A DNA stretch of 64,000 nucleotides, from positions 4,083 through 68,082 of the forward strand of contig NZ_KB890435.1 in the NCBI RefSeq assembly GCF_000373105.1, in the 5' to 3' direction. The position numbers and the translations under genes were made by a program. Within the stretch, counting starts at the first letter, position 1. Each line of letters starts with the position of its first letter. Below the pieces are notes generated by a model. It was given only the letters and a program-made list of their open reading frames with translations, made no database searches and had not been told where the DNA came from. This document shows positions 8,768-55,880 of this stretch, piece after piece. Origin of the DNA: Neolewinella persica DSM 23188. GTDB lineage: Bacteria > Bacteroidota > Bacteroidia > Chitinophagales > Saprospiraceae.

Positions 8768-8820
8768 CGGAGTCAGCCGCGTGATCCGGAGAGCCCTCCC
8801 CATCCACCACCATACCGCCC

Positions 8821-9519: not shown

Positions 9520-9591
9520 TTGTTAACTAAAAGCTGCCTACTCCATTCATTACCCACAAAACAATACCTCAAAAGCTGCATTAATCATTTA

Positions 9592-10323
9592 ATGAAGCTA
9601 CTCCTCCTCTTCTTCCTGACCCTGACTTTCCTTTCCTGCGATCCCAACCGTAAGCCCCCCACTTACTCCCGGGACGATGGCAACCTTACCGTTGCCGGTT
9701 CCATGCGGGCCGTTCTGTATGACGGTAAAACCAAGGGACAGATTCAACTAGACACCATCAGCGAACGTGAGGGTTTGTACGGCCTCGGGCCAGCGGCCTT
9801 CCTGCAGGGAGAGTTGCTCGTTCTGGACGGACAAGCGTTCCGTAGTCGGGTCATCAGTCAAAAAGAGATGAAGGTCGAACAGACCTTCTCGGCTAAGGCA
9901 CCTTACTTCGTCTACACCCACCAAACGGACTGGCAAGAATTTACCCTTCCCCCTTCCGTGCGCACCTACCGACAGCTACTCGATTATGTTGACCGGATGA
10001 CGACCTCAAAACCCAGACCATTAGTTTTTCGATTAAGCGGCCGGGTGAAACAAGCCGATATTCACATAGCCAACCTGCCCAACGGTGTATTCCCAAGTGA
10101 GCCCAAAGAAGCCCTGACGGGGCAGCAAAGCTACCGGCTAATCGACCGTGACGTTGAGATCGTAGGCTTCTTCAGTGTCCACCATCAGGGTATATTTACC
10201 GACCTCGACAGCTATGGCCACCTGCACCTCATCACTACTGACCGGGACCTTATGGGGCACCTGCACGGCATTCAACCCGGAACTGGGATGCAGTTATTTT
10301 TGCCTAAGCAAGTGAGTGAGTAA
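9592..10323 (+). CDS. Alpha-acetolactate decarboxylase-like lipoprotein
   Basis: The 243-residue product starts MKLLLLFFLTLTFLSCDPN; the lipobox LSC predicts a lipoprotein. A longer TTG-start reading from 9520 would bury the signal. The mature part follows the BudA family: GLGPAAFLQGELLVLDGQ, then IVGFFSVHHQGIFTDLDSYGHLHLITTDRDLMGHLHG, which supplies the metal-binding histidines HLH and GH. BudA converts 2-acetolactate to acetoin, usually as a soluble enzyme, so a lipid-anchored form is odd. No acetolactate synthase or butanediol gene is nearby. It follows the LytTR regulator by 72 bases and may share its transcript. Confidence 0.82.
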   Translation: MKLLLLFFLTLTFLSCDPNRKPPTYSRDDGNLTVAGSMRAVLYDGKTKGQIQLDTISEREGLYGLGPAAFLQGELLVLDGQAFRSRVISQKEMKVEQTFSAKAPYFVYTHQTDWQEFTLPPSVRTYRQLLDYVDRMTTSKPRPLVFRLSGRVKQADIHIANLPNGVFPSEPKEALTGQQSYRLIDRDVEIVGFFSVHHQGIFTDLDSYGHLHLITTDRDLMGHLHGIQPGTGMQLFLPKQVSE

Positions 10324-10334
10324 GGGATCAGCAC

Positions 10335-12269
10335 CTATTCCTCCCATTTGAACCGATAAGACGTAGTCATCCTCGTCCTTCCCGGTAGGCTGTAACTAAC
10401 GTTTACGTCGATTTTCTTTACGTCTTCTAACCCGGGAATTTTCAAGGTTTCCAGCTTCTGGATATTCGACGGGGCAATTTGGCTGACCACTGCGGTAAAA
10501 TTGCCCGTCTGCCCTGCTTGTGGGGCCAAAGCATTCAGGCGTTGCAAGACCTCAGCATAAGCCGGTATCCGTGCTGCCACCATACCGCGCACCTCCTCCA
10601 GAACAAGGTTGGCCTGGTCCTGAAAAATGTATCGATAAGTCCCGATGAGCGGAGGAACAACCGGAGGTGTTTTAGCCAAAAAGTCAGCTTCCGTAATCCG
10701 TTGGGGCTGGTCATCTCCGTAGTCAAAGCTAAAGTTTTCCCGGGGTACGGCGGGCATTTTCAGACTACTATTGGAGTAAGCACTTCGCCTGGCGCCTTTT
10801 TCATTTTTATAGTTAAGCTTACGATACTTCTTAGCCCTTTCGGCATAAGGCAAAAACTCGATGGCGACCAGGCTATCGATGTTAAGACTGCCACGATTAG
10901 CTTCCAGGTAAGCAACGTACTCAAGATTAGGATGGTGCAGAAACTGCTGGACGTCGCGTCCTAATGCCGTGCTAAGTACTCCTTCTGCCTTAGAGGAAGC
11001 GTTAGGCCGGATGCTACACAGCGCAAGCATACCATTGAGGCCGTTTTGATCCTCCGCAGCAAAACCCTCGCTTCCTCGTATAATAACGGTGTTGTTGTCT
11101 TCTCCGGCTTCCAATTGTGCCGCAATAATTTTCACATAAAAAGAGGAGAAGGAACTGGTGCGGAAGTAAGCCCGAAAAAAGAGCTGCTCTGCAGGTTCCC
11201 GACCCTTTACTTCACGGTGCCGTACGTTTTTACTGATAATGTCTGCGACCGACTTCTTTGCATAAAAATTAAGTTCATTAGCTAAAGCGTTTGGATCAAT
11301 GTCTACCAAGGACATTTCGTACACCTTGTTTTCCTCCAGAAACGTTACGGGGATACCATACTGGAGTAAGTCTCCGGACTCCGCGGCAACATCGGTATAC
11401 ACCACTTCTCCGGTCTGATTTTTCCACTTCATCCACAACCGACCATCGTTAGCCGGGCTCCGAAGTCCCCCCTGGTAATGCTTAAAAAGTAAGAAGCCTT
11501 CATGCGTTCGCTGCTCCCTGGCATAAAAGGCAAACTGCCCGTTTTGCGGATAAGACGTAAAAATGTCAGCGTCAGGAATACTCCCGCCAGCGGTTGCTGT
11601 ACCTCCATCCGCTTTCCTGCTCTGCTCAGAAGAGATTTTAATGTAGTGTTCAATTGGCCGGGAGCCGTCACGCTTCCTATTCCAAAATAGTAGATCAGTT
11701 CGTGAAGGCCTGGAGATAATATCTCCTCTGACATACAAGCCGCTATAGTTATCCGTACGAAGGTGGAAGAGTAGCTGACGGCGCACCAACTCCGGTTGGA
11801 GCAGAGAAGTCAGCCATGATTCGTTGGCCCTCCTTCTTATCCACTCATCGGAATGCTGATCGTAAATGCGCCGGAGCAAAGGAATATCGGAAAGCGCCTT
11901 ACCTGCCTTGGCCGCCCTACCCCATTGACTAATACGATTGTCGTAAAATTTCATCTTCCGGAGTACGGCTAACGCAACGCCCAGGCTATCCGGTGGACAT
12001 GCTTGCCGGACTAAGTCTTCGTGGGCCGCCTGCCAATCATAATTTTGGAGCATAGAGCTACCCACCAACCGCTTAAAGTGTGCCTCTTCCCGGTTGTACT
12101 TTGCCTGGTTAGCCGTTAATGAATCTATATGCTCAATTACAATAGTCTTAATGGGAACGATCATGGCTTCCCGAAACAGGTCAAACTCTGTTGGTCGTTG
12201 CCCCTTCAGGCCCAAAGAGGCCGTTATTAACACCAGGAGCGGTAGGATAGAACGCAATCGAATCATCAT
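10335..12269 (-). CDS. Large exported protein of unknown function, last gene of a seven-gene operon
   Basis: A 644-residue protein with signal peptide (MMIRLRSILPLLVLITASLG, cleaved before QRPTEF); the start could be either of the two adjacent ATGs. I recognise no family. The N-terminal 180 residues look helical and rich in charged residues. The middle has beta-rich stretches and repeated aromatic patterns (SFSSFYVKIIAAQLE). The C-terminal part (PQRITEADFLAKTPPVVPPLIG onward) ends in a helical and then beta segment, SYRFKWEE. It has no lipobox, membrane helix or T9SS tail, so it is probably periplasmic. It lies 22 bases behind the CsgG-like gene and closes the operon. Confidence 0.75.
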   Translation of the reverse strand: MMIRLRSILPLLVLITASLGLKGQRPTEFDLFREAMIVPIKTIVIEHIDSLTANQAKYNREEAHFKRLVGSSMLQNYDWQAAHEDLVRQACPPDSLGVALAVLRKMKFYDNRISQWGRAAKAGKALSDIPLLRRIYDQHSDEWIRRRANESWLTSLLQPELVRRQLLFHLRTDNYSGLYVRGDIISRPSRTDLLFWNRKRDGSRPIEHYIKISSEQSRKADGGTATAGGSIPDADIFTSYPQNGQFAFYAREQRTHEGFLLFKHYQGGLRSPANDGRLWMKWKNQTGEVVYTDVAAESGDLLQYGIPVTFLEENKVYEMSLVDIDPNALANELNFYAKKSVADIISKNVRHREVKGREPAEQLFFRAYFRTSSFSSFYVKIIAAQLEAGEDNNTVIIRGSEGFAAEDQNGLNGMLALCSIRPNASSKAEGVLSTALGRDVQQFLHHPNLEYVAYLEANRGSLNIDSLVAIEFLPYAERAKKYRKLNYKNEKGARRSAYSNSSLKMPAVPRENFSFDYGDDQPQRITEADFLAKTPPVVPPLIGTYRYIFQDQANLVLEEVRGMVAARIPAYAEVLQRLNALAPQAGQTGNFTAVVSQIAPSNIQKLETLKIPGLEDVKKIDVNVSYSLPGRTRMTTSYRFKWEE

Positions 12270-17557: not shown

Positions 17558-17977
17558 TTAGCCAATAATCAGGTCATCTTGAGCCGGAGTGATGGCCCCC
17601 GTAGACCCTGACTGAATAGGAGCTTCTATGCGGTTACGCTTATTGATTTCTTCACGATTTCCTTTCCAGGCATCACCTTCGTAAAAGAAGGCAATGACCC
17701 CCCAAACGAGCAAGCCCATTGGCAGTAGCACCGTTAAGGCCAGGCCTTTGACTTCGTAGGCCATGTGCATGAACTCGTAAATGATGAAGTATGCCTTGTA
17801 AACCGAGAGGACGATGATCAGTATAGCAAGTCCGATGAAGATCGGTTGCATGTCTTTAGCCCAGTCCTGAGCCTTAAGAAGAGAAAGGATTACTTCCGCA
17901 ACGGTAACCGCTGCCAACAAGCCAAGTCCTTTCCAAACCGCTTTTTTTGAATCTTCGTAGCTAGCGTGAGATGCCAT
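17558..17977 (-). CDS. Cytochrome c oxidase subunit IV
   Basis: A 139-residue inner-membrane protein with three transmembrane segments (about 16-33, 43-66 and 78-97). It matches the small prokaryotic subunit IV family of caa3-type oxidases, which stabilises the complex and has no redox centre. A soluble tail of about 40 residues (GDAWKGNREEINKRNRIEAP and on) follows the last helix. It is the last gene of the respiratory operon, 123 bases behind coxIII, and is followed by the terminator. Confidence 0.85.
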   Translation of the reverse strand: MASHASYEDSKKAVWKGLGLLAAVTVAEVILSLLKAQDWAKDMQPIFIGLAILIIVLSVYKAYFIIYEFMHMAYEVKGLALTVLLPMGLLVWGVIAFFYEGDAWKGNREEINKRNRIEAPIQSGSTGAITPAQDDLIIG

Positions 17978-18100: not shown

Positions 18101-19075
18101 TTACAGGAGGTAGAATACGAGGAATACGAAGACCCATACCAAATCTACAAAGTGCCAGTAGAGGCCGATCTTTTCGACCATCTCGTAGCCGTTTCTGCGG
18201 GCGGCGTAGACGCCGCTGCCTGCGTTAATCAGGATGATAAGCAGGAAGCCGACGCCGGTAAGTACGTGAAAACCGTGGAAACCGGTAATGCCGAAGAAGA
18301 GGGCACCGAAGGCAGATGGGCCGAATTCCTGGGTTTTGGTAGCTCCGGCATCGAAGCCATCGCTTACCAGAAATTTGCGATGAATGTAGCCGCGGTCGTC
18401 GACCATATAGCCCGCAGCATCAGTCGCCGTGGTTGGATACTCGAAGTGGGCTTCTCCTTCATGACCTTCGCCGTGGCTCTCACCCGCTTTGTGCATGAGG
18501 TAGGTTTCACCAGCAACTACCGCTTCATCGGTAGGCTCGCCAGTTTCGGGGTCAAGGTAAACGCCGTTTTCCACATAGGTGCCAAACGGGTTAGTGGTTA
18601 CCGTCATGTGCTCTACGTTGATCAGGTTGTTCCACTCCCAGGCCTGACAGCCAAGAAAGCCAGCTCCACCAATTACGGTAAGTAACATCCAGAAAACCAC
18701 TCCACGTTTGTTCTCGCGTGCGCCTTCCTGCACCGCCCGAACCATGGTACCGGAGCTGATGATGAGGAGGAACGACATGAAAGTTACAAAGATCAGTGGC
18801 GCATGGCCACCGGGAAATAACTCATGGATACCAAAGGGAGCGGTAGCGAAAACCGCGTCAGGAACTGGCCAGCTGGGGCTACTGATACGCAGGGTACCGT
18901 AGGCAATCAGGAAGCCTGAAAAGGTAAAAGCATCCGAAAGCAGGAAGTACCACATCATCAACTTCCCGTAGGAAGTCGCGAAGGGTTTACTATCACCGCC
19001 TTCCCATCCGCCCTCGGGCTGGTGGTGCTCGGCGTGCGCGTCGTGTTCAACGAGAAGGTCCGTTTCTGCGGCCAT
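18101..19075 (-). CDS. Cytochrome c oxidase subunit III (larger paralogue)
   Basis: A 324-residue membrane protein. It has a His-rich N-terminus (EHDAHAEHHQ), the first helix after KLMMWYFLLSDAFTFSGFL, a central block FLGCQAWEW, and the C-terminal FGITGFHGFHVLTG and GLYWHFVDLVWVFVF that are typical of subunit III. An insertion of about 90 residues between helices (about 150-240, with ESHGEGHEGEAHFEYP) is long for the family and histidine-rich. It carries no redox centre and supports proton uptake and stability of the oxidase. A second, shorter coxIII gene lies directly upstream in the operon. Confidence 0.92.
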   Translation of the reverse strand: MAAETDLLVEHDAHAEHHQPEGGWEGGDSKPFATSYGKLMMWYFLLSDAFTFSGFLIAYGTLRISSPSWPVPDAVFATAPFGIHELFPGGHAPLIFVTFMSFLLIISSGTMVRAVQEGARENKRGVVFWMLLTVIGGAGFLGCQAWEWNNLINVEHMTVTTNPFGTYVENGVYLDPETGEPTDEAVVAGETYLMHKAGESHGEGHEGEAHFEYPTTATDAAGYMVDDRGYIHRKFLVSDGFDAGATKTQEFGPSAFGALFFGITGFHGFHVLTGVGFLLIILINAGSGVYAARRNGYEMVEKIGLYWHFVDLVWVFVFLVFYLL

Positions 19076-19148: not shown

Positions 19149-19739
19149 TTAGCGTTGCAAGCTCAGGAATACGATCAGGTAGATCCAGAGCAGGTCAACA
19201 AAATGCCAGTAGGTCAGCGTCAACTCCAACCGCAACTGGCGGGCGGGAGTACGCTTCAACTTGCGTACGAAAGCGACGACCAGGGCTACGGTCAGTACAG
19301 CGATGCCACCCAATACGTGGACAGCGTGTAAGCCACTGATGGCGTAGACAAAATCACCGGATGGATTGATCTTTAACGGGACGCCTTCGGCGGCCAGTTG
19401 TTCCCAACCCAGGTATTGCAGTATTACAAAGGCGATCCCTAAAACAAAGGTCAGGCTAAGTAATGACTTGTAGGCAAACGCTGCTTCTCGTTTGAAGGCA
19501 CTATAAGCGGCGTGCAAAGTTAGGCTACTTACAACTATGACCAAAGTGTTCCAGTAGAAAATAGATGGGATGTCGAATTCCAGCCAGTTTCCAGCTGCTC
19601 TCCGAACCACATAGGCACTGGTCAGCGCTGTGAACATCATTATCAGGCTCACCAACCCTACCCAAAGCGCTAGCTTTTTGGGGTGAATTTTATTGCGCCG
19701 GGTGGCAACCTCCATTTCCTTATTTACGGTAGTTTCCAT
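19149..19739 (-). CDS. Cytochrome c oxidase subunit III (shorter paralogue)
   Basis: A 196-residue protein with five membrane helices. It has WVGLVSLIMMFTALTSAYVVRR, FYWNTLVIVVSS, VLQYLGWEQL, ISGLHAVHVLGG and TYWHFVDLLWIYLIVFL. Two coxIII genes per operon are usual in Bacteroidota. It lies five bases behind ctaB and so is probably translationally linked to it. Confidence 0.92.
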   Translation of the reverse strand: METTVNKEMEVATRRNKIHPKKLALWVGLVSLIMMFTALTSAYVVRRAAGNWLEFDIPSIFYWNTLVIVVSSLTLHAAYSAFKREAAFAYKSLLSLTFVLGIAFVILQYLGWEQLAAEGVPLKINPSGDFVYAISGLHAVHVLGGIAVLTVALVVAFVRKLKRTPARQLRLELTLTYWHFVDLLWIYLIVFLSLQR

Positions 19740-19744
19740 GGCAA

Positions 19745-20659
19745 TTAGTTTAAGATAAATTGCTGCCCTATCCAGTAAGCTGTGAACGCCAGAGGAAGGT
19801 AGGCAAAAGAGAAAAACATCATGCCCAGCGCCGACTTGCGTCCGGGTTGAGCACGAAAAGCCAATGCAAAGTGGAGAAAGACACCACTCAGCAAGACCAC
19901 CAGGCCAGCGGCCCAGATGGAGGTTACCCCTAAATAGTAAGGAACCGCAGCAAGTGGTACCAGAACGATGGCAGCAATAACAGCGTCACGCCCTAAGGTC
20001 TTTGCATCTACAGTACCATTCCGTTCGGGGACCAATTTAAACCCGGCCTTCGCATAATCTTCGTAGCCCAAGTAACCTATCGCATAGAAGTGTGGTAGCT
20101 GCCAGAAAAACTGGATAGTGAAAAGCGTCAGTCCCAGTAAAGTTATTTGCCCTTCTGCAGCGGCGCAGCCGATGAGTGCGGGTAAAGCTCCCGGGATCGC
20201 ACCGACCAGAACAGCCACCGGTCCCACACGCTTTAACGGTGTGTAAACAAAAGCGTAACTGATCAACGAAACCATCCCAAGAAAGGCCGTCCAGGGGTTG
20301 AACAGTGCCAACAAGGTAATGCCACCAATGCTGGAAAACCCTGCAATCAGTAAAGCATCACTGGAACTAAGTCGACCTTCCGCCAGCGGACGCGTACGCG
20401 TACGCTCCATTTGACGGTCGTAATCCTTCTCGAGTACCTCATTAAGCACGTTGGCGGCGGCAGTAGTCAGAAAGCCACCAGCGGTAAGTACGAATACGTA
20501 CCACCAGCTAAACGAGCCTGCACCTAAAGCGACCATGTAAGCCAACACGGAAGACAGGACCACCGTAGCGGACAGCCTGAATTTAACCAGGGCGCCCAAG
20601 TCCGTTAGCCGCTGGCTAAACGTACTGGTAATTTCCCGACTTGCGCTTTGATGCTTCAC
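19745..20659 (-). CDS. ctaB: Protoheme IX farnesyltransferase (heme O synthase)
   Basis: A 304-residue UbiA-type prenyltransferase with about eight to nine membrane helices. The prenyl-diphosphate site is NVLNEVLEKDYDRQMERT followed by RTRPL; the second Asp-rich part includes YEDYAKAGFKLVPERNG. It converts heme B to heme O for the oxidase encoded around it. It follows coxI at 99 bases, with a stem-loop between them at 20702-20736. Confidence 0.96.
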   Translation of the reverse strand: MKHQSASREITSTFSQRLTDLGALVKFRLSATVVLSSVLAYMVALGAGSFSWWYVFVLTAGGFLTTAAANVLNEVLEKDYDRQMERTRTRPLAEGRLSSSDALLIAGFSSIGGITLLALFNPWTAFLGMVSLISYAFVYTPLKRVGPVAVLVGAIPGALPALIGCAAAEGQITLLGLTLFTIQFFWQLPHFYAIGYLGYEDYAKAGFKLVPERNGTVDAKTLGRDAVIAAIVLVPLAAVPYYLGVTSIWAAGLVVLLSGVFLHFALAFRAQPGRKSALGMMFFSFAYLPLAFTAYWIGQQFILN

Positions 20660-20758: not shown

Positions 20759-22609
20759 CTAGTGTGCCGGAGATTCATCCGGGCCTACCGGTTCGACCTG
20801 AGAAATAAACTCTCGTCCGTCTTTACCGTAGTCATAAGCCCAGCGCTGAACAGCAGGCAGTTTACCCGGCCAGTTACCGTGGCCTGTTTCGATTGGTGTA
20901 GTCCACTCCAACGTGTTGGCGTTGTAGGGGTTCATCGTTTTCATCTTACGTCCTTTCCAGATGCTGTAGAAGAAGTTCAGAACGAAGAGCAGCTGGAAAC
21001 CAAAAGTGATGATGGCTGCAATAGTTATGAATTTATTCAAATCTCCAAATTGGCTAAAAGACTGGAAGACATCGAAGCTGTAGTAACGGCGAGGCACACC
21101 TGCCATACCGATAAAGTGCATCGGCCAGAAGACACAGTAGGCACCAATGATCGTTCCCCAGAAGTGGAACTTACCAAGTGTTTCGTTCATAAAGCGACCG
21201 TACATCTTGGGGAACCAGTGGTAAACACCGGCGTACATACCGAAGAAGGCCGCTACTCCCATCACAATGTGGAAGTGAGCTACTACGAAGTAAGTATCGT
21301 GCAGTTGAATATCAAGGGTAGAGTTACCGAGCCAGATACCGGTAAGACCACCGGAAATGAACATGGAGACAAAGCCGATACCAAAGAGGCTGGCGGGATT
21401 GAAGCGTACGCTACCACCGTATAAAGTAGCAATCCAGTTGAACACTTTTACTGCCGATGGTACGGCAATGATCAACGTAAAGACCACGAAGAAATTGGCG
21501 ATGAAAGGATTGACCCCAGACATAAACATGTGGTGTGCCCACACGATGAAAGAGAGGAAACCAATCGCCAGTATCGAAAAGACCATGGCCTTGTATCCAA
21601 AGATCGGCTTACGGGCATTAACGGAGAGTACCTCCGAAACAATACCCATCGCAGGAAGGATAATGATGTATACCTCCGGGTGACCGAGGAACCAGAACAA
21701 GTGCTGGTAAAGGATCGGGCTACCACCTACGTGGTCAAGTGCCTGTCCGCCAATGTAAATGTCGGAAAGGTAGAAGCTGGTACCGATACCACGGTCAAGC
21801 ATCATCAGGAAGAAGGCAGAGACCAACACGGGGAAAGACAGCAAGCCCAAAATAGCCGTCACGAAGAAAGCCCAAATCGGGAGTGGCAAACGCCACATGC
21901 TCATGCCCTTAGTCCGAAGGTTAAGTACGGTAGTAATGTAGTTGATGCCACCAAGGAGGACTGAAACCACGAAAAATACCAAAGAGATTGTCCAAAGCGT
22001 CATACCGGCACCAGATCCATCCATGGCTTGGGGGAGTGCGGAAAGCGGAGGATAGGCTACCCAACCACCGGCAAATGGGCCGGTACTGAGGAACAGGGAA
22101 GCAAACATGATCGTACCGGAAATAAAGAAGAACCAGTAACTCATCATATTGAGCATTGGCGAAGCCATATCTCTGGCGCCAATCATCAGCGGGATCAATA
22201 GGTTCGAGAAGGTACCTGACAAGCCAGCGGTGAGCACGAAGAATACCAGAATGGTACCGTGCATAGTAACCAAAGCGTAGTAGAAATCAGGTACAAGACT
22301 ACCAACTCCATCGGAGTTGACAGCTATCCATTTTCCAAGTACGGGCTTTAGCCAGGCGATGCTCTCTTCAGGAAAGCCAAGTTGCATCCGGAATACCAGA
22401 GACATCAGACCACCAATAATGGCCCACATCATCCCGGTAATCAGGAACTGCTTGGCAATCATTTTGTGATCCTGCGAGAAAACATAATGAGAGATGAAAT
22501 TAGATTGGTATTTGTCTCCGTGGTGATGCTCGTGGAAGTGGTCCTCGTAACCCAATTCCTGGATCAGACCTTCCTCACGATTTGCCGGAGCTATAACTGC
22601 TGTTGCCAT
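20759..22609 (-). CDS. ctaD: Cytochrome c oxidase subunit I
   Basis: A 616-residue protein of twelve main helices that holds the low-spin heme and the heme/CuB centre. Seen motifs are YALVTMHGTILVFF (heme ligand), WFLGHPEVYIIILP with the Glu and the His-Tyr cross-link pair (GHPEVY), WAHHMF (CuB His pair) and HDTYFVVAHFHIVMG with ligands of both hemes. The GHPEVY Glu places it in the A1-like group. A His-rich N-terminus (EDHFHEHHHGDKYQ) is unusual. It follows coxII by 35 bases. Confidence 0.97.
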   Translation of the reverse strand: MATAVIAPANREEGLIQELGYEDHFHEHHHGDKYQSNFISHYVFSQDHKMIAKQFLITGMMWAIIGGLMSLVFRMQLGFPEESIAWLKPVLGKWIAVNSDGVGSLVPDFYYALVTMHGTILVFFVLTAGLSGTFSNLLIPLMIGARDMASPMLNMMSYWFFFISGTIMFASLFLSTGPFAGGWVAYPPLSALPQAMDGSGAGMTLWTISLVFFVVSVLLGGINYITTVLNLRTKGMSMWRLPLPIWAFFVTAILGLLSFPVLVSAFFLMMLDRGIGTSFYLSDIYIGGQALDHVGGSPILYQHLFWFLGHPEVYIIILPAMGIVSEVLSVNARKPIFGYKAMVFSILAIGFLSFIVWAHHMFMSGVNPFIANFFVVFTLIIAVPSAVKVFNWIATLYGGSVRFNPASLFGIGFVSMFISGGLTGIWLGNSTLDIQLHDTYFVVAHFHIVMGVAAFFGMYAGVYHWFPKMYGRFMNETLGKFHFWGTIIGAYCVFWPMHFIGMAGVPRRYYSFDVFQSFSQFGDLNKFITIAAIITFGFQLLFVLNFFYSIWKGRKMKTMNPYNANTLEWTTPIETGHGNWPGKLPAVQRWAYDYGKDGREFISQVEPVGPDESPAH

Positions 22610-22644: not shown

Positions 22645-24177
22645 TTACTTAGACGGAGTATTGACGATTGTCGTCGGTACGGGTAATGCACCCCGTGTAA
22701 CATATAATTCTGTACGTCGGTTGGCCTCGCGGCCGTCTTCAGTTGCGTTGTCGGCGACGGGGGCGTACTGCCCGAAGCCAGAACTGACCAGTCGGTCGGC
22801 ACTAATGCCTCCTTTAACCAGATAATCCAGGACAACAGCTGCTCTGCGGTCGGAGAGCGTCAGATTTGCTTCCGCATTTCCAGTGTTGTCAGTATGCCCC
22901 TTCAGCAGGGACTTAACTTCCGCGTTCTTTTTCAAGAAAGCGATCGCATCATCCAACTGGTAACGACTCAGTTCAGTAAGCTGAGCACTTCCGGTTTCAA
23001 AAGTTACGTACTTCAGGATGAGCGTATTGTCATCATCTTCCGGGGTTTCCAGTGCCGTATTGGCCTCGGTATTAAATTCCTGACGGCGTTGCTCGATCTC
23101 TGCGGGGAACAGCATGCCAGTATTTGGGTCATTTTCCGTGAAACGGATGTTCTCCATGTAGTAAGATGGCTGCTCAGCCAACCAGGCTTCGTATTCATCT
23201 TCTTCGACAACTTCAAAAGTCCGCAACATCGAGTAATGACCGTTGCCACAAAGTTCAGCACATGCTAACTCGTAATTAGCCGTTTCCCAAAGCATCTTTT
23301 CCGGATCGTTCGGATCGGGAACCTGATATTCTTCGTACTCGCTGAGTGATTTGCGCCACTCCTTCGTCGTCTTTGTAGGTGTAAAAACGAAATAGGTAGG
23401 CAGGCCGGGCAATGCGTCCATCTTCACCCGAAACTGAGGAAGGTAGAAATCATGCAGTACATCCTTGGCCGTAATACGAACCCGTATCTTTTTGTTAAGC
23501 GGAAGCTTGAAATTGTTGACGAGTTTATCATCAGCGTTCTTCAAGTCAGTCCAGTCCTGACCAAGCGAGTTCGTACCATCGATCAGACGAAAGTCCTTAC
23601 GACCAATAAGGCCGTCTTCGCCAGGAAAACGTAGCTGCCAGGCAAACTGGTAACCAGTTGCTTCAATTTCGATGTAGTCGTCATCAGCACCAACATCTCC
23701 CATGATATCGTTCCAGGCGTCCAGACCGCTGATCACCAAAAAGGTCATAACGATGGCAGGAATACCCGTCCAGATAATCTCCAGTTGATTGTTGTGAGAA
23801 ATGAACTGTGCTTTGCCGCCTTTACGCTGGCGGTACTTGTAGGCGTACCAGAACAGGAGGATGTGTGTGAGAATGAACACGATATAGGTTACCGCAAGGG
23901 TAACGTTCATCATGCTGTCGATCCGACCACCATGAGCAGAGGCCGATTCGTGTGGACCATAGCCCAACATCCAGTTCTTGTAATAAAAAGCGGAGGCAGT
24001 ACATAGAACCAGGAAGGCAACCATGAAGGCAACAAGGTAGTACCCCGTCATCTTAGTGTTACGTGCTTCAACTTCCTCAGCACCGCGTAACTGCTTCGCC
24101 AGATCACGCACCCGTCCGATCTGAAGAACGATCAGGAGCAAAAGCGCAATACAGATAAATACTATTAGTGTAGACAT
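22645..24177 (-). CDS. ctaC: Cytochrome c oxidase subunit II fused to an OmpA-like domain
   Basis: A 510-residue protein. It has an extra N-terminal helix (4-20), a further one at 44-64, and the two subunit II helices near 88-112 and 135-152. The periplasmic CuA domain follows, with H242, C306, E308, C310, H314 and M317 in CAELCGNGHYSM. Residues 387-495 are an OmpA-like peptidoglycan-binding domain with LKGHTDNTGNAEANLTLSDRRA and GREANRRTELYV. Normal subunit II ends after CuA. The fusion would tie the oxidase to the cell wall from the periplasmic side. There is no heme c motif, so electrons must arrive from a separate cytochrome, probably ActE or the ActA c domain. Confidence 0.96.
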   Translation of the reverse strand: MSTLIVFICIALLLLIVLQIGRVRDLAKQLRGAEEVEARNTKMTGYYLVAFMVAFLVLCTASAFYYKNWMLGYGPHESASAHGGRIDSMMNVTLAVTYIVFILTHILLFWYAYKYRQRKGGKAQFISHNNQLEIIWTGIPAIVMTFLVISGLDAWNDIMGDVGADDDYIEIEATGYQFAWQLRFPGEDGLIGRKDFRLIDGTNSLGQDWTDLKNADDKLVNNFKLPLNKKIRVRITAKDVLHDFYLPQFRVKMDALPGLPTYFVFTPTKTTKEWRKSLSEYEEYQVPDPNDPEKMLWETANYELACAELCGNGHYSMLRTFEVVEEDEYEAWLAEQPSYYMENIRFTENDPNTGMLFPAEIEQRRQEFNTEANTALETPEDDDNTLILKYVTFETGSAQLTELSRYQLDDAIAFLKKNAEVKSLLKGHTDNTGNAEANLTLSDRRAAVVLDYLVKGGISADRLVSSGFGQYAPVADNATEDGREANRRTELYVTRGALPVPTTIVNTPSK

Positions 24178-24308: not shown

Positions 24309-25721
24309 CTACGTATGGTGGTGCAGGCTCTCTTCGAAATACGGGTCTTTCTTAGGCTCCAACGGAGCTTTGGTCAGCATGCTGAGCACAAAGAACAGAA
24401 AGCCACCAAGGAAGCCCAGGAATATTCCAATCTCCAGTAAACCAGGGATAGTGTATCCCGCCTTGTAGGGCAGGAATACCCGGGTAGACTCATGGCCTTC
24501 GCCATGACCGGCAGCTGCGTGGTCGTCTCCATGACCCTCGGCGGCGTGGCCGTCGTCGTGACTGGCAGTGGCATGACCGTCGTCTGCCGCAGCGTGGTCG
24601 TCTCCGTGGCCAGCAGCATCCATAGTAGCGTGCTCCTCGTCACCGTGCCCACCAGCATCGTGCGTCATGTGGGTCAGTGTTTCACGGGCAGCTGGCTTGA
24701 TCATGTTGAAAAAATCGAACCAGTGGCCGAAGAACACAATCGCTGAAGCGAAGAATAATGTACCGAACTTACGCTTGGTATCGTTCCGCATCAGAATGAA
24801 GAACGGGGCGATAAAGTTCAGCAGGAGGTTCCCCCAGAACAATACCGGGTAGTTGTCCATCCGCGTTCGGAAGTAGATCGTTTCTTCCCCAACGTTTCCG
24901 TACCAGATCAACATGAACTGGCTGAACCATACATAGGTCCAGAAGATGGAGATAGCAAAAAGGTACTTACCAAGGTCATGGAAGTGTTCCGCGTTGATAC
25001 CGGGGAAGTAACCACGGCTCTTAAGGTAGATCAGTAGCATGATGGTCAGTGCCGTCATGGCAACAAACAGTGAAGCAGACGCATACCAGGCAAACATGGT
25101 AGAGTACCAGTGTGCATCGAGCGACATGATCCACTGCCAGATGACCGCGGCGGTGGTGAAACCAAGAATGATCAGGAAAGGAGCGGCGTACTTCTTGATA
25201 CGGGCGTGGTGCTCGTAGGCAGTCGTTCCGTTCTTGTCCTCATCAATACTGATTTGGCGAATCCGGCTGATGAAGAAATACCACAGGCCCATGAAGCCGA
25301 TCGTTGCGCCAGTATACCATACGGGGTTAAGGAAGGCAGACTTATGCTTAAGGATTGCATCGGTTGCTACCGCCTCCGCATCATTCCAGTGATACATGTG
25401 ATGAGCACCGGTCCACAGACCGACGATGATGACACCCATCAGGAACAGTCCCGGCAGCAGGAACATTCCGAAGGCCTCCCACACACGCTTAAATTGCACA
25501 AACCAACCGGCATAGGCCGTGGTAAAGGCAGCATAGGCGAAACAGGCCATGAAGGAAATTCCGATGAAAAAGACGGAATTGTGAAGCAGGTTAGTCCAGA
25601 ACCGCATGTGGTGGCCTTCGCCACCGTCCACAAAGTAGCTTGCTACGAGCAACACCAAACCAATGAGGGCGAGGCCTCCGGTTACTGTTTTTGCCCGGGA
25701 TGAGAATACGAAGTTCTCCAT
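24309..25721 (-). CDS. actF: Alternative complex III subunit ActF
   Basis: A 470-residue protein of ten membrane helices, NrfD-like and paralogous to ActC, that supports quinol binding. Landmarks are FWTNLLHNSVFFIGISFMACF, GLWTGAHHMYHWND, SLDAHWYSTMFAWYASASLF and ISIFWTYVWFSQFMLIWYGN. Residues 352-411 form a His/Asp/Gly insertion with more than a dozen histidines before the last helix, likely at the membrane surface and able to bind metal. The last helix is at about 425-450. It lies 63 bases behind actE. Confidence 0.93.
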   Translation of the reverse strand: MENFVFSSRAKTVTGGLALIGLVLLVASYFVDGGEGHHMRFWTNLLHNSVFFIGISFMACFAYAAFTTAYAGWFVQFKRVWEAFGMFLLPGLFLMGVIIVGLWTGAHHMYHWNDAEAVATDAILKHKSAFLNPVWYTGATIGFMGLWYFFISRIRQISIDEDKNGTTAYEHHARIKKYAAPFLIILGFTTAAVIWQWIMSLDAHWYSTMFAWYASASLFVAMTALTIMLLIYLKSRGYFPGINAEHFHDLGKYLFAISIFWTYVWFSQFMLIWYGNVGEETIYFRTRMDNYPVLFWGNLLLNFIAPFFILMRNDTKRKFGTLFFASAIVFFGHWFDFFNMIKPAARETLTHMTHDAGGHGDEEHATMDAAGHGDDHAAADDGHATASHDDGHAAEGHGDDHAAAGHGEGHESTRVFLPYKAGYTIPGLLEIGIFLGFLGGFLFFVLSMLTKAPLEPKKDPYFEESLHHHT

Positions 25722-25784: not shown

Positions 25785-26714
25785 TTATTTCTTGCTGTGG
25801 TCTTCACCGTGGCCAGCGTCGCCATCATGGCCTTCTCCCTGCCCGGCCTCGTGGCCTCCGGCGTCCATATGCTGTTCACCGTCGGTATCATGGCCAGCAG
25901 CCATGCCTTTGAACTCAGCACCAGGAGTGCCGAATGCAGGGTTCAGTGTATTTATCATCGGGGAGTATTCAGTCTTAGTTTCCTTAGCCTGCAAAGATCG
26001 AATGTAGTGGATCACCTGCCAGCGCTCTTCGTAGCTGATCTTGTCTTTGTAAGCACCCATCGCGTTGTAACCGTGCATAATGGCATTGTAGTAACGGCCA
26101 TTAGATGCGGCAAGGAATTCAGCGTTCAGGAAGTTTGCCGGAGCAAGTGGGTATTTGGCGTTGGGGTTCTGCTCATCGTCGTACAGATATCCTAGTCCGT
26201 TACCACTCATTCCGTGGCAAATACCACAGAAAATATTGTATAATTTAGCACCACGAATCATACCTTCTTCAGTAATCGGAAAAGGATTATCAACCAATCC
26301 AGCAATTGCCGCGAGGCGACCTTCAGGGGTATCATCGTAGTAATACGGTACCTGGCCATTGGTAGGAACACTGATGGCATTCATGTGCTTACCATCAACC
26401 ATGGTACCACGCATGAGTTCGGCGTCTTCCAACGATTTGGGAGCAGACATCCCAGACAGGTAGGAACTGGCATAGCCACGTGGTACCGTTCCGGCAGGAA
26501 CGGTCCGTGGGTAAACCAGCTTGGCCAGCTCAATGGTAGATTCCTTATCCCAGGTATTATAGTAGTAATAGTTGTAGGTATTCGCCTCAACGGCCAGGGA
26601 ATGGGCCATATCGGGCATGTACTCACTTCCCGTGAAGTTATCTTCCGGGTAAGAGCAAGCCGTAAGAATAACGGCTAAACTCAGAGACAATACCAGTACG
26701 CGCAAATCTTTCAT
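25785..26714 (-). CDS. actE: Alternative complex III monoheme cytochrome c ActE
   Basis: A 309-residue lipoprotein-type cytochrome: signal MKDLRVLVLSLSLAVILTAC with lipobox LTAC, then a class I c-type domain with CGICH (heme site) near residue 164 and downstream Met candidates in YNAIMHGYNAMGAYKD. ActE takes electrons from ActB/ActA and can hand them to the oxidase. The C-terminal 45 residues are a His/Gly/Asp-rich tail (HDTDGEQHMDAGGHEAG and on) like the insertion in ActF. Its leader region upstream carries two R17 repeats. Confidence 0.93.
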   Translation of the reverse strand: MKDLRVLVLSLSLAVILTACSYPEDNFTGSEYMPDMAHSLAVEANTYNYYYYNTWDKESTIELAKLVYPRTVPAGTVPRGYASSYLSGMSAPKSLEDAELMRGTMVDGKHMNAISVPTNGQVPYYYDDTPEGRLAAIAGLVDNPFPITEEGMIRGAKLYNIFCGICHGMSGNGLGYLYDDEQNPNAKYPLAPANFLNAEFLAASNGRYYNAIMHGYNAMGAYKDKISYEERWQVIHYIRSLQAKETKTEYSPMINTLNPAFGTPGAEFKGMAAGHDTDGEQHMDAGGHEAGQGEGHDGDAGHGEDHSKK

Positions 26715-26896: not shown

Positions 26897-27442
26897 TTAC
26901 GCTGGAACCATTTTAGAATGAACGCTTTCTGCACCAGTTTTGGAGAAGTACCCTTTCAGGTCATCCACCGCGCCGGACGCCAGGTCGGTTGCGTCGAAGG
27001 CAATGCAAAACTTATCGTCTGTAATCCGATCGTGTAAGCGCCGGGGCTCAGCACCAGGGCCGAGGCCACAGATAATGTAGAACACCAGTACCATTCCCAC
27101 GGCAGCGAATAGTACCGTAAGTTCGAAGGTAATCGGGATAAAGGCTGGTACAGACCAGTATGGCTTACCACCAAAGATGATCGGCCAGTCGCGGGTAAAC
27201 ACCCACGTCATGAATCCAAACCCGAACAAACAACCGATGGTCCCGAAAATGAATCCGGCGATGTGCAGGCGACTCTCCTCCAGGCCCAGCAGCGGATCAA
27301 GTCCGTGCACGGGAAAGGGAGTGTACACCTCATCAATGTTGAGGTGGGCAGCGTTGGCGGCCTTTACGGCATCCAGCAGCTTTACTTCGTCGTCATAGAG
27401 TCCGAAGAGGATATTGCGTTCTGTTGACATTACTTCTGCCAT
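26897..27442 (-). CDS. actD: Alternative complex III subunit ActD (DUF3341)
   Basis: A 181-residue protein with an N-terminal soluble part (ILFGLYDDEVKLLDAVKAAN, VYTPFPVHGLDPLLGL) and two membrane helices (about 60-80 and 100-125) with a conserved RDWPIIFGGKPYWSVPAFIPITFELTVLFA region between and into them. ActD has no cofactor and anchors the complex in the membrane. It follows actC by 20 bases. Confidence 0.94.
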   Translation of the reverse strand: MAEVMSTERNILFGLYDDEVKLLDAVKAANAAHLNIDEVYTPFPVHGLDPLLGLEESRLHIAGFIFGTIGCLFGFGFMTWVFTRDWPIIFGGKPYWSVPAFIPITFELTVLFAAVGMVLVFYIICGLGPGAEPRRLHDRITDDKFCIAFDATDLASGAVDDLKGYFSKTGAESVHSKMVPA

Positions 27443-27462: not shown

Positions 27463-28926
27463 CTACTTGATCTCGTTTTCGTTGTTGTCGATGTCTACCG
27501 TACTTCCTGCAGCAAGGTCGTTGGCTGCGGCCGGCACATGGTGGCCATGACCGACAGCCTCGTCACCAATGTACTGGTCTCCTGCCGTCTTGAGGATCGA
27601 CTTAATCTCGGCGATGGCCACAACTGGTGCCACACGAGTGAAGATCAGGAAGAGGGTGAAGAACAAACCAAGCGTACCGATGAAGATACAAATCTCCACC
27701 CAGGAGGGTACGTAGTAACTCCAGCTGGAGGGGAGGTAATCGCGGGCCAGTGTAGTGGCAATGATCACAAAGCGTTCGAACCACATACCGATGTTGATGA
27801 AGATCGACATGAAGAAGGTCCAGAACAGACTGCGACGGATTTTCTTGCTCCAGAAGATCTGGGGAGAAAGTACGTTACAGAGCATCATTCCGATGTACGA
27901 CCAATAGTAAGGGCCAAGTACCCGGTTAAGGAAGGCGAATTGCTCGTAGATGTAGCCAGAGTACCAGGCGATAAAAAGCTCCGTCAGGTAAGCAACACCA
28001 ACGATAGAGCCGGTGAGCAGGATTACTTTGTTCATCGACTCGACGTGTTCGAGCGTGATGTAGTCTTCCAGTTTGAGGACCTTACGGGCAATAAGCATCA
28101 GTGTAAGTACCATCGCGAAGCCGGAGAAGATGGCCCCCGCCACGAAGTAGGGAGGGAAGATGGTCGTATGCCAGCCGGGAATTACCGAAGTAGCGAAGTC
28201 AAAGGATACGATCGTGTGTACCGAAAGTACCAGTGGCGTAGCCAAGCCGGCCAGAATGAGGGAAAGACTCTCCCAGCGCTGCCAATGCTTGGCAGATCCG
28301 TTCCAGCCGAAGGATACGATGCTGTAAATTTTCTTCCGCAGGCCTTTCGCCCGGTCACGGACCGTAGCCAAATCAGGTACCAAACCAGCATACCAGAAAA
28401 GGAGGGATACCGTGAAGTAAGTAGAGATGGCAAATACGTCCCAAAGCAGCGGGCTGTTGAAGTTTACCCACAGCGGACCCCGGGTGTTGGGGTAAGGGAA
28501 GATGAAGATGGCCAGCCAAAGGCGCCCCATGTGGATCAGTGGAAACTGACCGGCACAGATTACGGCAAAAATTGTCATGGCCTCAGCTGCACGGTTTACA
28601 CCCGTCCGCCATTTCTGGCGGAACAGCAAGAGAATCGCGGAGATAAGGGTACCGGCGTGACCAATACCTACCCACCAAACGAAGTTGGTAATGTCCCAAC
28701 CCCAGTTGATGGTTCGGTTCAGGTTCCACGAACCGATACCGACCCAGACCGTCCAGGCGACGGAGAAGGCAAACATACCGAGGCACATCACCGAAAGGAT
28801 GAAGGTGATGACCCAGCTAAGCGAGGGGGCCGTTTCCGTCGGGCGACAGATGTCTTCCGTGATCTGATGGTAGGTTTTTCTACCCGTGATCAGCGGCTTA
28901 CGAACGGGGGCTACATGTCCACTCAT
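27463..28926 (-). CDS. actC: Alternative complex III subunit ActC (NrfD-like)
   Basis: A 487-residue integral membrane protein of ten helices that binds menaquinol and conducts protons. Landmarks are YHQITEDICRPTE, WVWWVGIGHAGTLISAIL-type helix 3 (seen as FVWWVGIGHAGTLISAIL), FPLIHMGRLWLAIFIFPYPN and PYYWSYIGMMLCNVLSPQIFW. The Gly-His and His-Met-Gly-Arg pairs are the conserved quinol-site residues of the family. It is 87 bases behind actB, with two GC-rich stem-loops between. Confidence 0.95.
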   Translation of the reverse strand: MSGHVAPVRKPLITGRKTYHQITEDICRPTETAPSLSWVITFILSVMCLGMFAFSVAWTVWVGIGSWNLNRTINWGWDITNFVWWVGIGHAGTLISAILLLFRQKWRTGVNRAAEAMTIFAVICAGQFPLIHMGRLWLAIFIFPYPNTRGPLWVNFNSPLLWDVFAISTYFTVSLLFWYAGLVPDLATVRDRAKGLRKKIYSIVSFGWNGSAKHWQRWESLSLILAGLATPLVLSVHTIVSFDFATSVIPGWHTTIFPPYFVAGAIFSGFAMVLTLMLIARKVLKLEDYITLEHVESMNKVILLTGSIVGVAYLTELFIAWYSGYIYEQFAFLNRVLGPYYWSYIGMMLCNVLSPQIFWSKKIRRSLFWTFFMSIFINIGMWFERFVIIATTLARDYLPSSWSYYVPSWVEICIFIGTLGLFFTLFLIFTRVAPVVAIAEIKSILKTAGDQYIGDEAVGHGHHVPAAANDLAAGSTVDIDNNENEIK

Positions 28927-29013: not shown

Positions 29014-32000
29014 CTAGGCTTCGAGTTCTTCTAATGGGTTGTGTACTCGGGCTGCGTAGAAAACACCAGGTTGAGTGTTCACTTCCTCAAGAGCCAGATA
29101 GTTCAGCGGGTTGTCCAGCTTACCTGCAATGTCTCCCTGCTTATTGTTACGGTCACCGAAGGTGATCGCACCAGTTGGGCAGGCCGTCTGGCAAGCCGTA
29201 CGAACATCAGAATCGCGCAGCGCGCGCTTCTCGATCTTGGCGGCGAGCTTGCCTTCCTGCAGACGCTGTGTACAGAAGCTACACTTCTCGATTACACCAC
29301 GGCTACGTACGGTTACATCCGGATTAAGGACCATCCGCGTCAGGTTATCAGCACCGAAGGCCAATTCCTCGCCCTGAACGGTTGGTTCATTGGAGCTGAA
29401 GAGGTCACCGGTCGTGTAATCCAACCAGTTGAAGCGACGAACCTTATAAGGACAGTTGTTGGCACAGTAACGGGTACCGATACAACGGTTGTAGATCATT
29501 TGGTTTAGTCCTTCATCACTGTGCTGGCTGGCGTTTACCGGACAAACGTTCTCACAAGGAGCATTGTCACAGTGCTGGCACATCATCGGCTGGTAGACGG
29601 CGCGAGGATTTTCAACATCACCGTAGAAGTAACGGTCAATCCGGAGCCACTTCATTTCGTGGTGGCGCCAAACTTCGTACTTACCAACGATTGGCACGTT
29701 GTTTTCAGCAACACAGGCTACTTCACAAGCAGCACAACCGATACAGGCACTCAGGTCGACGTGCATCGCCCACCAGTGGCCCTGGCTGTAAATGTCTTCG
29801 ACGTACTCCTCGTAAGGGTACAGCGTCTGATCATTCAGGTGTTGGGCATCGCTCCGCTTTTCAGCGATATGGCCTTTGAGTTCGCCTAAATCAGCGAAGG
29901 TTCCCTGGTAAATAATGGAACGATCAACAAGACCGCCCTGCATATCACCCAGGCTTCCGCCGTTACCGTTCATCACGGTAGCTTCATCTACGTTGTAAGG
30001 CTGTAGGTATTCAGCCTGCTCGGCAGTCAGCTCACCTGAATGGCTTTCAGTTTCTCCGGTGTTAGTGTTGTAGTACACCATTGCGCCGGATTCGTCCTTT
30101 GTTGTGAGGCCCATCGTGTGATGGTACTGAACGCTGGCGAATTCATCTTCAACGGCAACGCGGCCACTCACCTCCGCCTGATCGGCGAAGTACTGAACGT
30201 AGCCGGCGTCATCGACGGGAAGCCATGGGTAGACATTGATGCCCACTTCATGGCCAATTGCGCGACCGGAAACACCGGTGATCGACCGACCGTAACCCAG
30301 CGCAAGGCCAAAGGTATCCGGCTTCTGGCCAAACTGGCGGACGGCGGTAACCACCTGGGCGGTGCCACCAATAGTAACACTGACTTTGTCGGCTTTGCCT
30401 TTGTATTCTTCCTGGTTGAGGTCGTTGTAGGCAGTGTAGGTATAACCTTCTACCCAGCTTACGGGAATACTGAGGTAATTGCCCCATACCGTGCGGAGGA
30501 TCGGGTCGGGAACTTCTTGCAGCCAGGGGTTACCGGCGTATACACCGTTACCAATATTGACTGTCTCGTAGAAGGTAACCTCCTGGCCTGAACCAGCTTG
30601 AGACACACGGCCAGCAGCACCGGAAATTGCTCCGGCGTTATAGCCGCCAGCAGCAACTTCTCCTTCTTCCGTCGCAACGGTGCCAGCTGGCAGCGTAAGC
30701 ACGCCGGCCTGAAGCGCAGCATCCCAGAAGGAACGGAAGGAGACGAAATCGGACTGAGCACCGAAGGCCGTAGCCTCCCAGTTGCTTTTCACGAATTCAA
30801 GGTAAGGCTGATCTGCATCGGCCATTAGCTTATCGGACTTGGCCCAGCTGAGGAAAGTTTCTCCCTGCTCGCGGGTGCCGGCACGGCCGACGCTTGCGAA
30901 GATGGGGGTAATGGTAGGTTGTACCAGCGACAACTGACCCTGTACTGCCTCCACATCGCCCCAGCTTTCGAGGTAATGGTGGGTAGGCGTAACGTACTGG
31001 CACAGCATCGTCGTTTCATTGGGCACACCGCTCATACTGACGGAGAGCTTGGCTTTGCTGAGGTTCTCAGCGATACTGGCCGCCCATGGGTTGTCCCAGG
31101 CCGGGTTAGCGCCGTCGAGGACGATAACTGCGTCGACGCTGCCAGCGGCAAGGTCGTCAGAGAAACGGGCCAGAGCCTGGTCGCTGCCCTTACGTTGCAT
31201 GCTCCACCGGTCGGTGGTGATGGTGTGTCCGTAGGCACCGATGGCATTGTTGATGGCGTTGACCAACATTTGCTCACCGAGATTATTTGTTCCGCTGACG
31301 ACGAGGCCGCGGGTACGGTTGCGCTTAAGTTCGGCGGCAACAGCTTTTACTTTTGCAAGTGCGTCAGCCGGGAGGCTGGCGGAGGCACCACCACCAACTA
31401 CTTCGTTGTAGAGGGCGAGGATAGCCTGTCCCTGCTCACTTGGCTTGACGAGGATGCGGTTATCCGCATTGGAGCCGGTAAGGCTCATGTGGCTTTCGAT
31501 CTGTACGTGACGGCTCATCTTCTTGGCATCCGTCTTACGGCCCATCGAGTACTGGCGGGCGTATTGTACCGGGCTGATCCAGGTACCGAGGAAGTCACAG
31601 TTGATGGCAACGATAACGTCGGCCTTGTCGAAGTGGTAACTGGGGACGGCACGGGTGCCGAAAGTTTGCAGGTTAGCATCGAGTAATGCAGCACTGGAAA
31701 CGGGATCATACTGCACCAGTTCGGTATTGCTGAACTTTCCTTTGAACTCGTTGATTGCAGCGAGGAGCGAAGGACTCATCACGGTATGAGATACGATGCG
31801 CACCTTAGAACCGGCGGACAGTTTGCCGGCGATTTCAGCGTCGATGATGTCCCAACCATCATTATCCGAGTGGTTTTTGGCAGATTTGGCCATTCCTTCA
31901 CTGATCCGGTACGGGCCATCGAAGCGGCTGGTGTCATAAACACCCAACACCGAAGCTTGTACACGAGCGCTGGTACCACCACCGGTGATTGGGCTCATGC

Positions 32001-32352
32001 TGTTGCCTTCCACCTTAATTGGCCGACCTTCGCGGGTTTTCACCAGTACGGGGATGTAGTCACCACCCTGCACAAAGGTAGAAGCGTAGTAAGAAGCAAC
32101 GCCCGGAACGATGGAATCTGGCTTAGAAACGTAGGGAATTGCCTTACGAACCGGAATATCACAAGATGCGATGGTCGCGGCCGTCATGCCAAAACCAAGG
32201 TATTTAAGAAAATCCCGGCGGCTGGCTTCCAGACGCGGGTTTTCACTCATGGCCTCGGGCGCGCCTACTTCGTTGTCGGTGGCTTTGATGTATTCCTGGC
32301 TGGATTCGAGTTGATCCGTGCCTAACCAGATTTTGTTGACTTGCTTCTTCAT
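29014..32352 (-). CDS. actB: Alternative complex III iron-sulphur subunit ActB
   Basis: A 1112-residue periplasmic protein exported through Tat (RRDFLKYLGFG at about 45-55). The first 750 residues have a molybdopterin-oxidoreductase fold that is not expected to bind Mo in this family. The C-terminal ferredoxin-like part holds four Cys clusters: CIGCAACEVAC, CQHCDNAPCENVCPVNA, CIGTRYCANNC and CSFCTQRL with CQTACPTGAI, giving three or four Fe-S clusters. It receives electrons from quinol at ActC and passes them to ActA and ActE. It is 108 bases behind actA. Confidence 0.96.
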   Translation of the reverse strand: MKKQVNKIWLGTDQLESSQEYIKATDNEVGAPEAMSENPRLEASRRDFLKYLGFGMTAATIASCDIPVRKAIPYVSKPDSIVPGVASYYASTFVQGGDYIPVLVKTREGRPIKVEGNSMSPITGGGTSARVQASVLGVYDTSRFDGPYRISEGMAKSAKNHSDNDGWDIIDAEIAGKLSAGSKVRIVSHTVMSPSLLAAINEFKGKFSNTELVQYDPVSSAALLDANLQTFGTRAVPSYHFDKADVIVAINCDFLGTWISPVQYARQYSMGRKTDAKKMSRHVQIESHMSLTGSNADNRILVKPSEQGQAILALYNEVVGGGASASLPADALAKVKAVAAELKRNRTRGLVVSGTNNLGEQMLVNAINNAIGAYGHTITTDRWSMQRKGSDQALARFSDDLAAGSVDAVIVLDGANPAWDNPWAASIAENLSKAKLSVSMSGVPNETTMLCQYVTPTHHYLESWGDVEAVQGQLSLVQPTITPIFASVGRAGTREQGETFLSWAKSDKLMADADQPYLEFVKSNWEATAFGAQSDFVSFRSFWDAALQAGVLTLPAGTVATEEGEVAAGGYNAGAISGAAGRVSQAGSGQEVTFYETVNIGNGVYAGNPWLQEVPDPILRTVWGNYLSIPVSWVEGYTYTAYNDLNQEEYKGKADKVSVTIGGTAQVVTAVRQFGQKPDTFGLALGYGRSITGVSGRAIGHEVGINVYPWLPVDDAGYVQYFADQAEVSGRVAVEDEFASVQYHHTMGLTTKDESGAMVYYNTNTGETESHSGELTAEQAEYLQPYNVDEATVMNGNGGSLGDMQGGLVDRSIIYQGTFADLGELKGHIAEKRSDAQHLNDQTLYPYEEYVEDIYSQGHWWAMHVDLSACIGCAACEVACVAENNVPIVGKYEVWRHHEMKWLRIDRYFYGDVENPRAVYQPMMCQHCDNAPCENVCPVNASQHSDEGLNQMIYNRCIGTRYCANNCPYKVRRFNWLDYTTGDLFSSNEPTVQGEELAFGADNLTRMVLNPDVTVRSRGVIEKCSFCTQRLQEGKLAAKIEKRALRDSDVRTACQTACPTGAITFGDRNNKQGDIAGKLDNPLNYLALEEVNTQPGVFYAARVHNPLEELEA

Positions 32353-55596: not shown

Positions 55597-55880
55597 ATGT
55601 ATAATGTGTGGTTAATTAAATAAAGTAGTAAGAAGGCACACTCGTGTGTGTGCTATTTGTTTTGTTGCGGTGCTCCTGACAGGTACAAAAATCATAAAAC
55701 AGCCCTCTGGGCCGACTATTAATGGGGGAAGTACCGGCAATTTAATCATATAGACGGATTTTACAAGCGTAAGTCACGTGATTTTCCGGGAGTTCCTGCG
55801 TTTAGACGCATATTTTGCCCCTACCGATCTGAATTCCCACCCTAACTGTTCCAGAATTCCTTAATTACTAGGCTTTTAGG

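Follow-up and report, generated by a model that had tools for sequence, protein, structure and literature searches.

Respiratory complexes are commonly pictured as diffusing freely in the inner membrane. Certain other inner-membrane machines, the MotB/PomB stator and the OmpA-bearing TssL, carry an OmpA-like domain attached through a linker in the periplasm.

Supercomplexes of alternative complex III (ACIII) with an aa3 or caa3 oxidase have been described from Flavobacterium johnsoniae and Rhodothermus marinus. According to the available sections of the Rhodothermus report, models docked into a 20-Å map put ActE in a good position to pass electrons directly to oxidase subunit II (PMC5928083). 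Flavobacterium is closer kin of the organism studied here than Rhodothermus is. The accessible part of one Flavobacterium study describes ACIII as the sole electron source of cytochrome aa3 and ActE as dispensable for the transfer (PMC8552683), and, in the available portions of the Rhodothermus report and of another text, the Flavobacterium supercomplex is reportedly built in another way, being joined by oxidase subunit III and having an ActA with an additional cytochrome domain (PMC8361435, PMC5928083).

The coxB-ompA gene and its operon

The window, by which we mean the whole 64,000-nucleotide stretch of Neolewinella persica DSM 23188 that was analysed, contains on its reverse strand a gene, coxB-ompA (22645-24177), for an oxidase subunit II (COX2) with a C-terminal OmpA domain. 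Its 510-codon frame is unbroken from ATG to stop, with zero internal stops. The nearest named records are from Neolewinella and Lewinella, and the NCBI taxonomy places Neolewinella in Lewinellaceae, Saprospiria. The protein is laid out as four helices, a CuA domain, a linker of ∼50 residues and an OmpA-type domain; the Pfam matches to COX2_TM, COX2 and OmpA each score above their curated cut-offs. The canonical transmembrane hairpin of COX2 spans residues 76-149 (23731-23952; Pfam COX2_TM) and the periplasmic CuA domain residues 171-335 (23173-23667), of which 171-259 match Pfam COX2. According to a check of individual residues, the CuA ligand set is complete (H242, C306, E308, C310, H314 and M317), with the loop C306-x-E308-x-C310-xxx-H314-xx-M317 at 23227-23262. 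A C...CG..H..M loop was found in 162 of the 162 COX2 entries checked, 131 by strict pattern and 31 by eye; the bridging Glu is absent from the COX2 of some relatives. The NCBIfam CoxB model scores the protein at 134.7 bits, under its cut-off of 147.7.

Beyond a linker at residues 336-386 (23020-23172), with a predicted helix at 358-377, lies the OmpA-like peptidoglycan-binding domain, recognized by Pfam, Foldseek and its motifs (residues 392-487 by the Pfam range; 22717-23004). The match to PF00691 is full-length, covering profile positions 1-98 of 98 with an E value of 1.4e-19. The domain possesses D430 and R445, 15 residues apart, as well as N438 and N486-R487-R488. In Acinetobacter OmpA, the D/R pair that binds diaminopimelate has, we take it, the same 15-residue spacing. 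MotB models matched this part of the protein far under their cut-offs. Residues 336-510 contain zero cysteines, so that the haem-binding CXXCH of caa3-type subunit IIc is absent from them. An AlphaFold2 model built from 13 sequences was mediocre overall (mean pLDDT 63.7, pTM 0.42) and better over residues 391-500, where 10-residue block means were 68-91; its Foldseek partners were COX2 chains and OmpA C-terminal domains. These data bear out the first-pass annotation in describing a COX2 with an intact CuA site that continues into a complete OmpA domain.

The same annotation had pointed to two additional N-terminal helices. The structural model and hydropathy place them at residues 1-71 (23965-24177), and chains of solved COX2 structures align to the protein only from residue 73 or later. 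The helices thus exist, and they are not special: by hydropathy count, four helices are present in 165 of 165 COX2 entries, 14 of which come from other orders of the class. We therefore do not count these helices as novel. They are a lineage-wide trait, unrelated to the OmpA fusion.

The gene sits between actF and coxA in an ACIII-oxidase operon whose genes, all those assigned here being on the reverse strand, run actB, actC, actD, actE, actF, coxB, coxA, a gene at 19745-20659, two COX3-like genes and subunit IV. Pfam families identify the iron-sulfur subunit ActB (29014-32352; Fer4 families), the NrfD-like ActC (27463-28926; NrfD), ActD (26897-27442; ActD), oxidase subunit I (coxA, 20759-22609; COX1), the two COX3-like genes (19149-19739 and 18101-19075; COX3) and subunit IV (17558-17977; COX4_pro). 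The monohaem cytochrome c of ACIII, ActE (25785-26714), is without an OmpA domain in the window. ActF (24309-25721), an ACIII membrane subunit, had no Pfam match and is assigned from its position and a weak similarity to ActC, and the product of 19745-20659 is, by appearance only, a putative haem O synthase. Because the act genes lie directly upstream of the cox genes, the partner of the oxidase is taken to be ACIII. A terminator-like hairpin of 17 pairs follows subunit IV (17537-17500), in a region whose count of terminator-like sites is not above that of shuffled sequence.

Some further features were observed in passing. ActE has a His/Asp/Glu-rich tail and ActF a His-rich stretch, both with the look of metal binding and both also noted at two other loci (L109, L111). 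Elsewhere in the window, a separate frame of 289 residues bears an OmpA domain (54745-55611, reverse strand).

A sequencing error or frameshift joining two genes, and an internal ribosome start yielding a free OmpA protein, had been named at the outset as what might undo the reading of a fused protein. A search of 20 same-genus genomes matched 18, and every one of the 18 matches is fused, extending to residue 495 or further; the two unmatched genomes are 88% and 55% complete. As the same fusion also occurs in other families, a frameshift or faulty assembly join is ruled out, and the probability we would assign to such an error is vanishingly small. Nor did the protein contain a signal or membrane segment from which a separately started OmpA product could be exported: the peak 19-residue hydropathy among windows starting at residues 330-400, by the junction, was 0.46. 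In seven comparisons within the genus, the OmpA part had pN values of 0.08-0.27 against pS values of 0.66-0.86, the synonymous sites being close to saturation. Within the genus, purifying selection acts on the OmpA part, and the linker is constrained to a similar degree (pN/pS about 0.14-0.29).

Distribution of the domain on COX2 and ActE

The first-pass annotation called for a search for further COX2-OmpA architectures, and these proved common among relatives. By hand count, and with N. persica included, 124 family genomes gave a COX2 match, of which 96 have the fusion; among the 28 others, two are cut by contig ends. The search was led to ActE by matches to the OmpA sequence in the neighbourhood of COX2 genes that lack the domain. 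ACIII-oxidase operons in which both genes were readable numbered 158, a set chosen partly by architecture and so non-random, with figures that are not prevalences. The domain is on COX2 in 80 of them and on ActE in 18; 60 have it on neither subunit and 0 on both. The window's family contributes 101 of these operons (76 COX2-OmpA, 8 ActE-OmpA and 17 neither). The set was reduced from 166 entries by removing those with a COX2 cut by a contig end (G735, G647) or interrupted by Ns (G540) and those with one gene absent from the stretch (G454, G729, G672, G521, G473). One genome, G515, whose frame is split by a scaffold gap, was entered by hand as ActE-OmpA.

A match was present in 104 of the 394 genomes of a phylum sample; stop-free matches into the OmpA part came from the window's family only. 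A class-level search at E 1e-85, too strict for distant fusions, returned 6 of 336, all of family f1. Families f4, f8 and f19 have COX2-OmpA as well; families f2, f12 and f75 have ActE-OmpA, the f75 case (G473) lying outside the 158. Among 80 loci compared, no stand-alone OmpA gene replacing the fusion was found. Three candidates were rejected: a stand-alone OmpA frame in G515, which is the ActE-OmpA gene broken by the scaffold gap; a COX2-OmpA in Polaribacter (L045), where COX2 stops at 339 residues and the match continues into coxA; and a fusion in G306, where the match reads through two stops.

The two carriers present similar domains. Among profile-detected domains, the D/R pair at a strict spacing of 15 was found in 79 of 83 borne by COX2 and 18 of 18 borne by ActE, and the NRR motif in 82 of 83 and 18 of 18, respectively. 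The linker between domain models has a median of 41 residues in COX2 (31-65) and 42 in ActE (25-161). ActE-OmpA proteins have CXXCH in 18 of 18 cases and a lipobox-like pattern in 11 of 18; these ActE counts of 18, for motifs and CXXCH alike, include G473 and omit G515. In one genus (G686, G595 and G621; L135, L136 and L256), the COX2 domain looks degenerate, with TD..G and NRR missing; these copies escape the profile and hence lie outside the motif counts. From their sequences, it appears that the domain can decay or persist without wall binding.

Other departures from the usual subunits were also seen. At four loci (L127, L129, L131 and L133), COX2 has a C-terminal extension of about 120-150 residues that is not OmpA, and at L131 it accompanies an OmpA domain on ActE. 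The ActE-OmpA of G515 (L244:567-2176), cut by the scaffold gap, has a long linker rich in Ala, Lys and Glu. At three loci (L112:6314-8056, L109:11849-13678 and L044:3658-5412), ActC is lengthened at its C-terminus by roughly 110-145 residues. In G049, inserts of about 100 residues in COX2 and about 180 in ActF were found (L114:7330-8793 and 8797-10575).

The fusions recur across several families. On a COX2 tree, made by a quick method that returned long-branch warnings, COX2-OmpA required 19 changes (gains or losses; at least 9 forced by the starred branches) and ActE-OmpA 8 (at least 3 forced); with three doubtful entries set aside, the counts were 17 and 8. The lack of operons bearing the domain on both subunits gives a naive Fisher p of 1e-6, a value that ignores kinship. 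As a statistical result this exclusivity does not stand, because the tree yields only three independent supported ActE contrasts and the entries were partly picked by architecture. A tree of the OmpA domain itself (110 columns, quick method) was poorly resolved. In it, all 31 sampled family-f1 COX2 domains (of 79) fell, with loose support, into a single group together with several ActE domains. The COX2 domains of G474 and G054 grouped with the OmpA domain of the G474 H+-pyrophosphatase, and the COX2 domains from G059 and G461 took other positions. The domain tree does not settle between one origin with hopping and several recruitments.

A proposed tether to peptidoglycan

We consider it likely that the OmpA domain tethers the ACIII-oxidase supercomplex to peptidoglycan. 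According to its motifs, the domain, on its ∼50-residue periplasmic linker, would bind the diaminopimelate stem of peptidoglycan and so hold the whole ACIII-aa3 supercomplex to the wall at its periplasmic, electron-entry face. The working likeness is MotB, in which an inner-membrane ion-translocating machine is held through an OmpA-like domain. We propose the whole supercomplex as the tethered object because the oxidase is encoded with ACIII and, in relatives, bound to it; by analogy, the supercomplex would also form in N. persica. A single tether per supercomplex, on COX2 or on ActE, may be enough, and anchoring might limit lateral diffusion or set the spacing to the wall. Since the Flavobacterium supercomplex is reportedly built differently from that of Rhodothermus, COX2 and ActE need not touch in Neolewinella. 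Two carriers, similar median linkers and wall-binding residues that are kept in almost all detected copies are what would be expected of an assembly tether. The first-pass annotation had the domain fixing the oxidase to the cell wall. Such fixing is the best explanation of the fusion and the ActE fusions lend it separate support, with binding read from motifs; because some relatives use ActE, it is more probable that the ACIII-oxidase assembly is anchored than the oxidase by itself. Against a tether, 60 of the 158 operons carry the domain on neither subunit, and the degenerate-looking COX2 copies of one genus and the reported Flavobacterium arrangement also weigh against it.

OmpA domains were also found on two other membrane machines. 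The H+-pyrophosphatase (HppA) of G474 (L302:1474-3285) has a C-terminal OmpA domain in which the wall-binding motif could be read. Of 158 genomes searched, 109 bear a pyrophosphatase, and HppA-OmpA was called, from alignments reaching the query end, in three: G474, G059 (C17:49833-51608) and G473 (C125:4041-5918). All three have a putatively tethered ACIII-oxidase. Fisher's test gave p = 0.08 for this association in 38 genomes and p = 0.008 in the 26 that lie outside the family; with a sample chosen partly for fusions, the association is suggestive only. The first periplasmic region of the SecD of G483 (L291:1-2754) contains an inserted OmpA domain; among 346 genomes searched (E 1e-36), the only other case was G495 (C322:2401-3111), of the same genus. 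The ActE-borne domains of G483 and G495 are 72-75% identical to the SecD OmpA query. OmpA matches numbered 30 in the N. persica genome and 19-29 in five others. At the loci fetched from these six genomes, comprising all of those of N. persica and part of the others, with several frames cut by locus ends, HppA and SecD were the only other multi-helix carriers. To us this points to repeated tethering of machines of the inner membrane, in a small sample. The broader proposal, to which we give an even chance, is that Saprospiria and neighbouring families use the peptidoglycan wall as a scaffold for energy-transducing inner-membrane machines, with tethers recruited again and again, interchangeably on COX2 or ActE and, in a few genomes, also on HppA and SecD, whose domains would be related to those of the supercomplex.

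The domain might instead be retained for protein-protein contact or stability within the supercomplex. Persistence of the degenerate-looking copies in G686, G595 and G621 would fit such a role, as would the non-OmpA extensions of about 120-150 residues on some other COX2 proteins of the family. We nevertheless regard it as rather unlikely: of 101 detected domains on both carriers, 97 keep the D/R pair and 100 the NRR motif, and placement on two subunits through linkers of variable length suggests a tether rather than a fixed interface. Neutral accretion, in which recombination adds C-terminal OmpA domains of little function, draws on the richness of these genomes in OmpA domains and on the appearance and disappearance of fusions along the tree. 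This seems quite improbable given the purifying selection within the genus despite near-saturated synonymous sites, the recurrent addition of the domain to the same pair of subunits in a single assembly, and the restriction of other multi-helix carriers at the fetched loci to HppA and SecD. As for cleavage in the periplasm, after which the OmpA part would act alone, the linker is long and probably exposed. The constraint on that linker is, however, about as strong as on the OmpA part, and beside the many other OmpA domains of the genome a free one would contribute little; we hold cleavage to be very improbable.

If true, an encoded tether would provide a natural experiment on the mobility, clustering and spacing of respiratory complexes, with COX2-OmpA, ActE-OmpA and neither, that is, putatively tethered and untethered relatives, occurring within one family. 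Placement on ActE likewise offers genomic support for ACIII and the oxidase acting as one unit.

Comparison with known systems

The operon has the same act and cox subunits as the ACIII-aa3/caa3 supercomplexes of F. johnsoniae and R. marinus. In the accessible portions of three texts on those supercomplexes, a peptidoglycan-binding domain was not found, and the word peptidoglycan is absent from all three main texts (PMC8361435, PMC5928083, PMC8552683); OmpA appears in PMC8552683 in a promoter context only. In an open PMC full-text search, no title or abstract opening suggested such a fusion, and domain databases may list the architecture.

With CoxB of A-type haem-copper oxidases (TIGR02866/PF00116), the protein shares the CuA ligands, the hairpin and an operon with coxA and COX3/COX4; it differs in having four helices rather than two and in its C-terminal OmpA domain. 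Like subunit IIc of the caa3 oxidases of Thermus and Rhodothermus, it is a COX2 with an added periplasmic C-terminal domain on the electron-entry side. In subunit IIc, however, the added domain is an electron-carrying cytochrome c, whereas that of coxB-ompA is a cysteine-free fold of the wall-binding type. In contrast to MotB/PomB and TssL, the protein belongs to another family and to a redox proton pump, with no role in torque or secretion. Overall, the fusion is real, conserved and recurrent, and it represents known parts in a new combination rather than a new kind of system.
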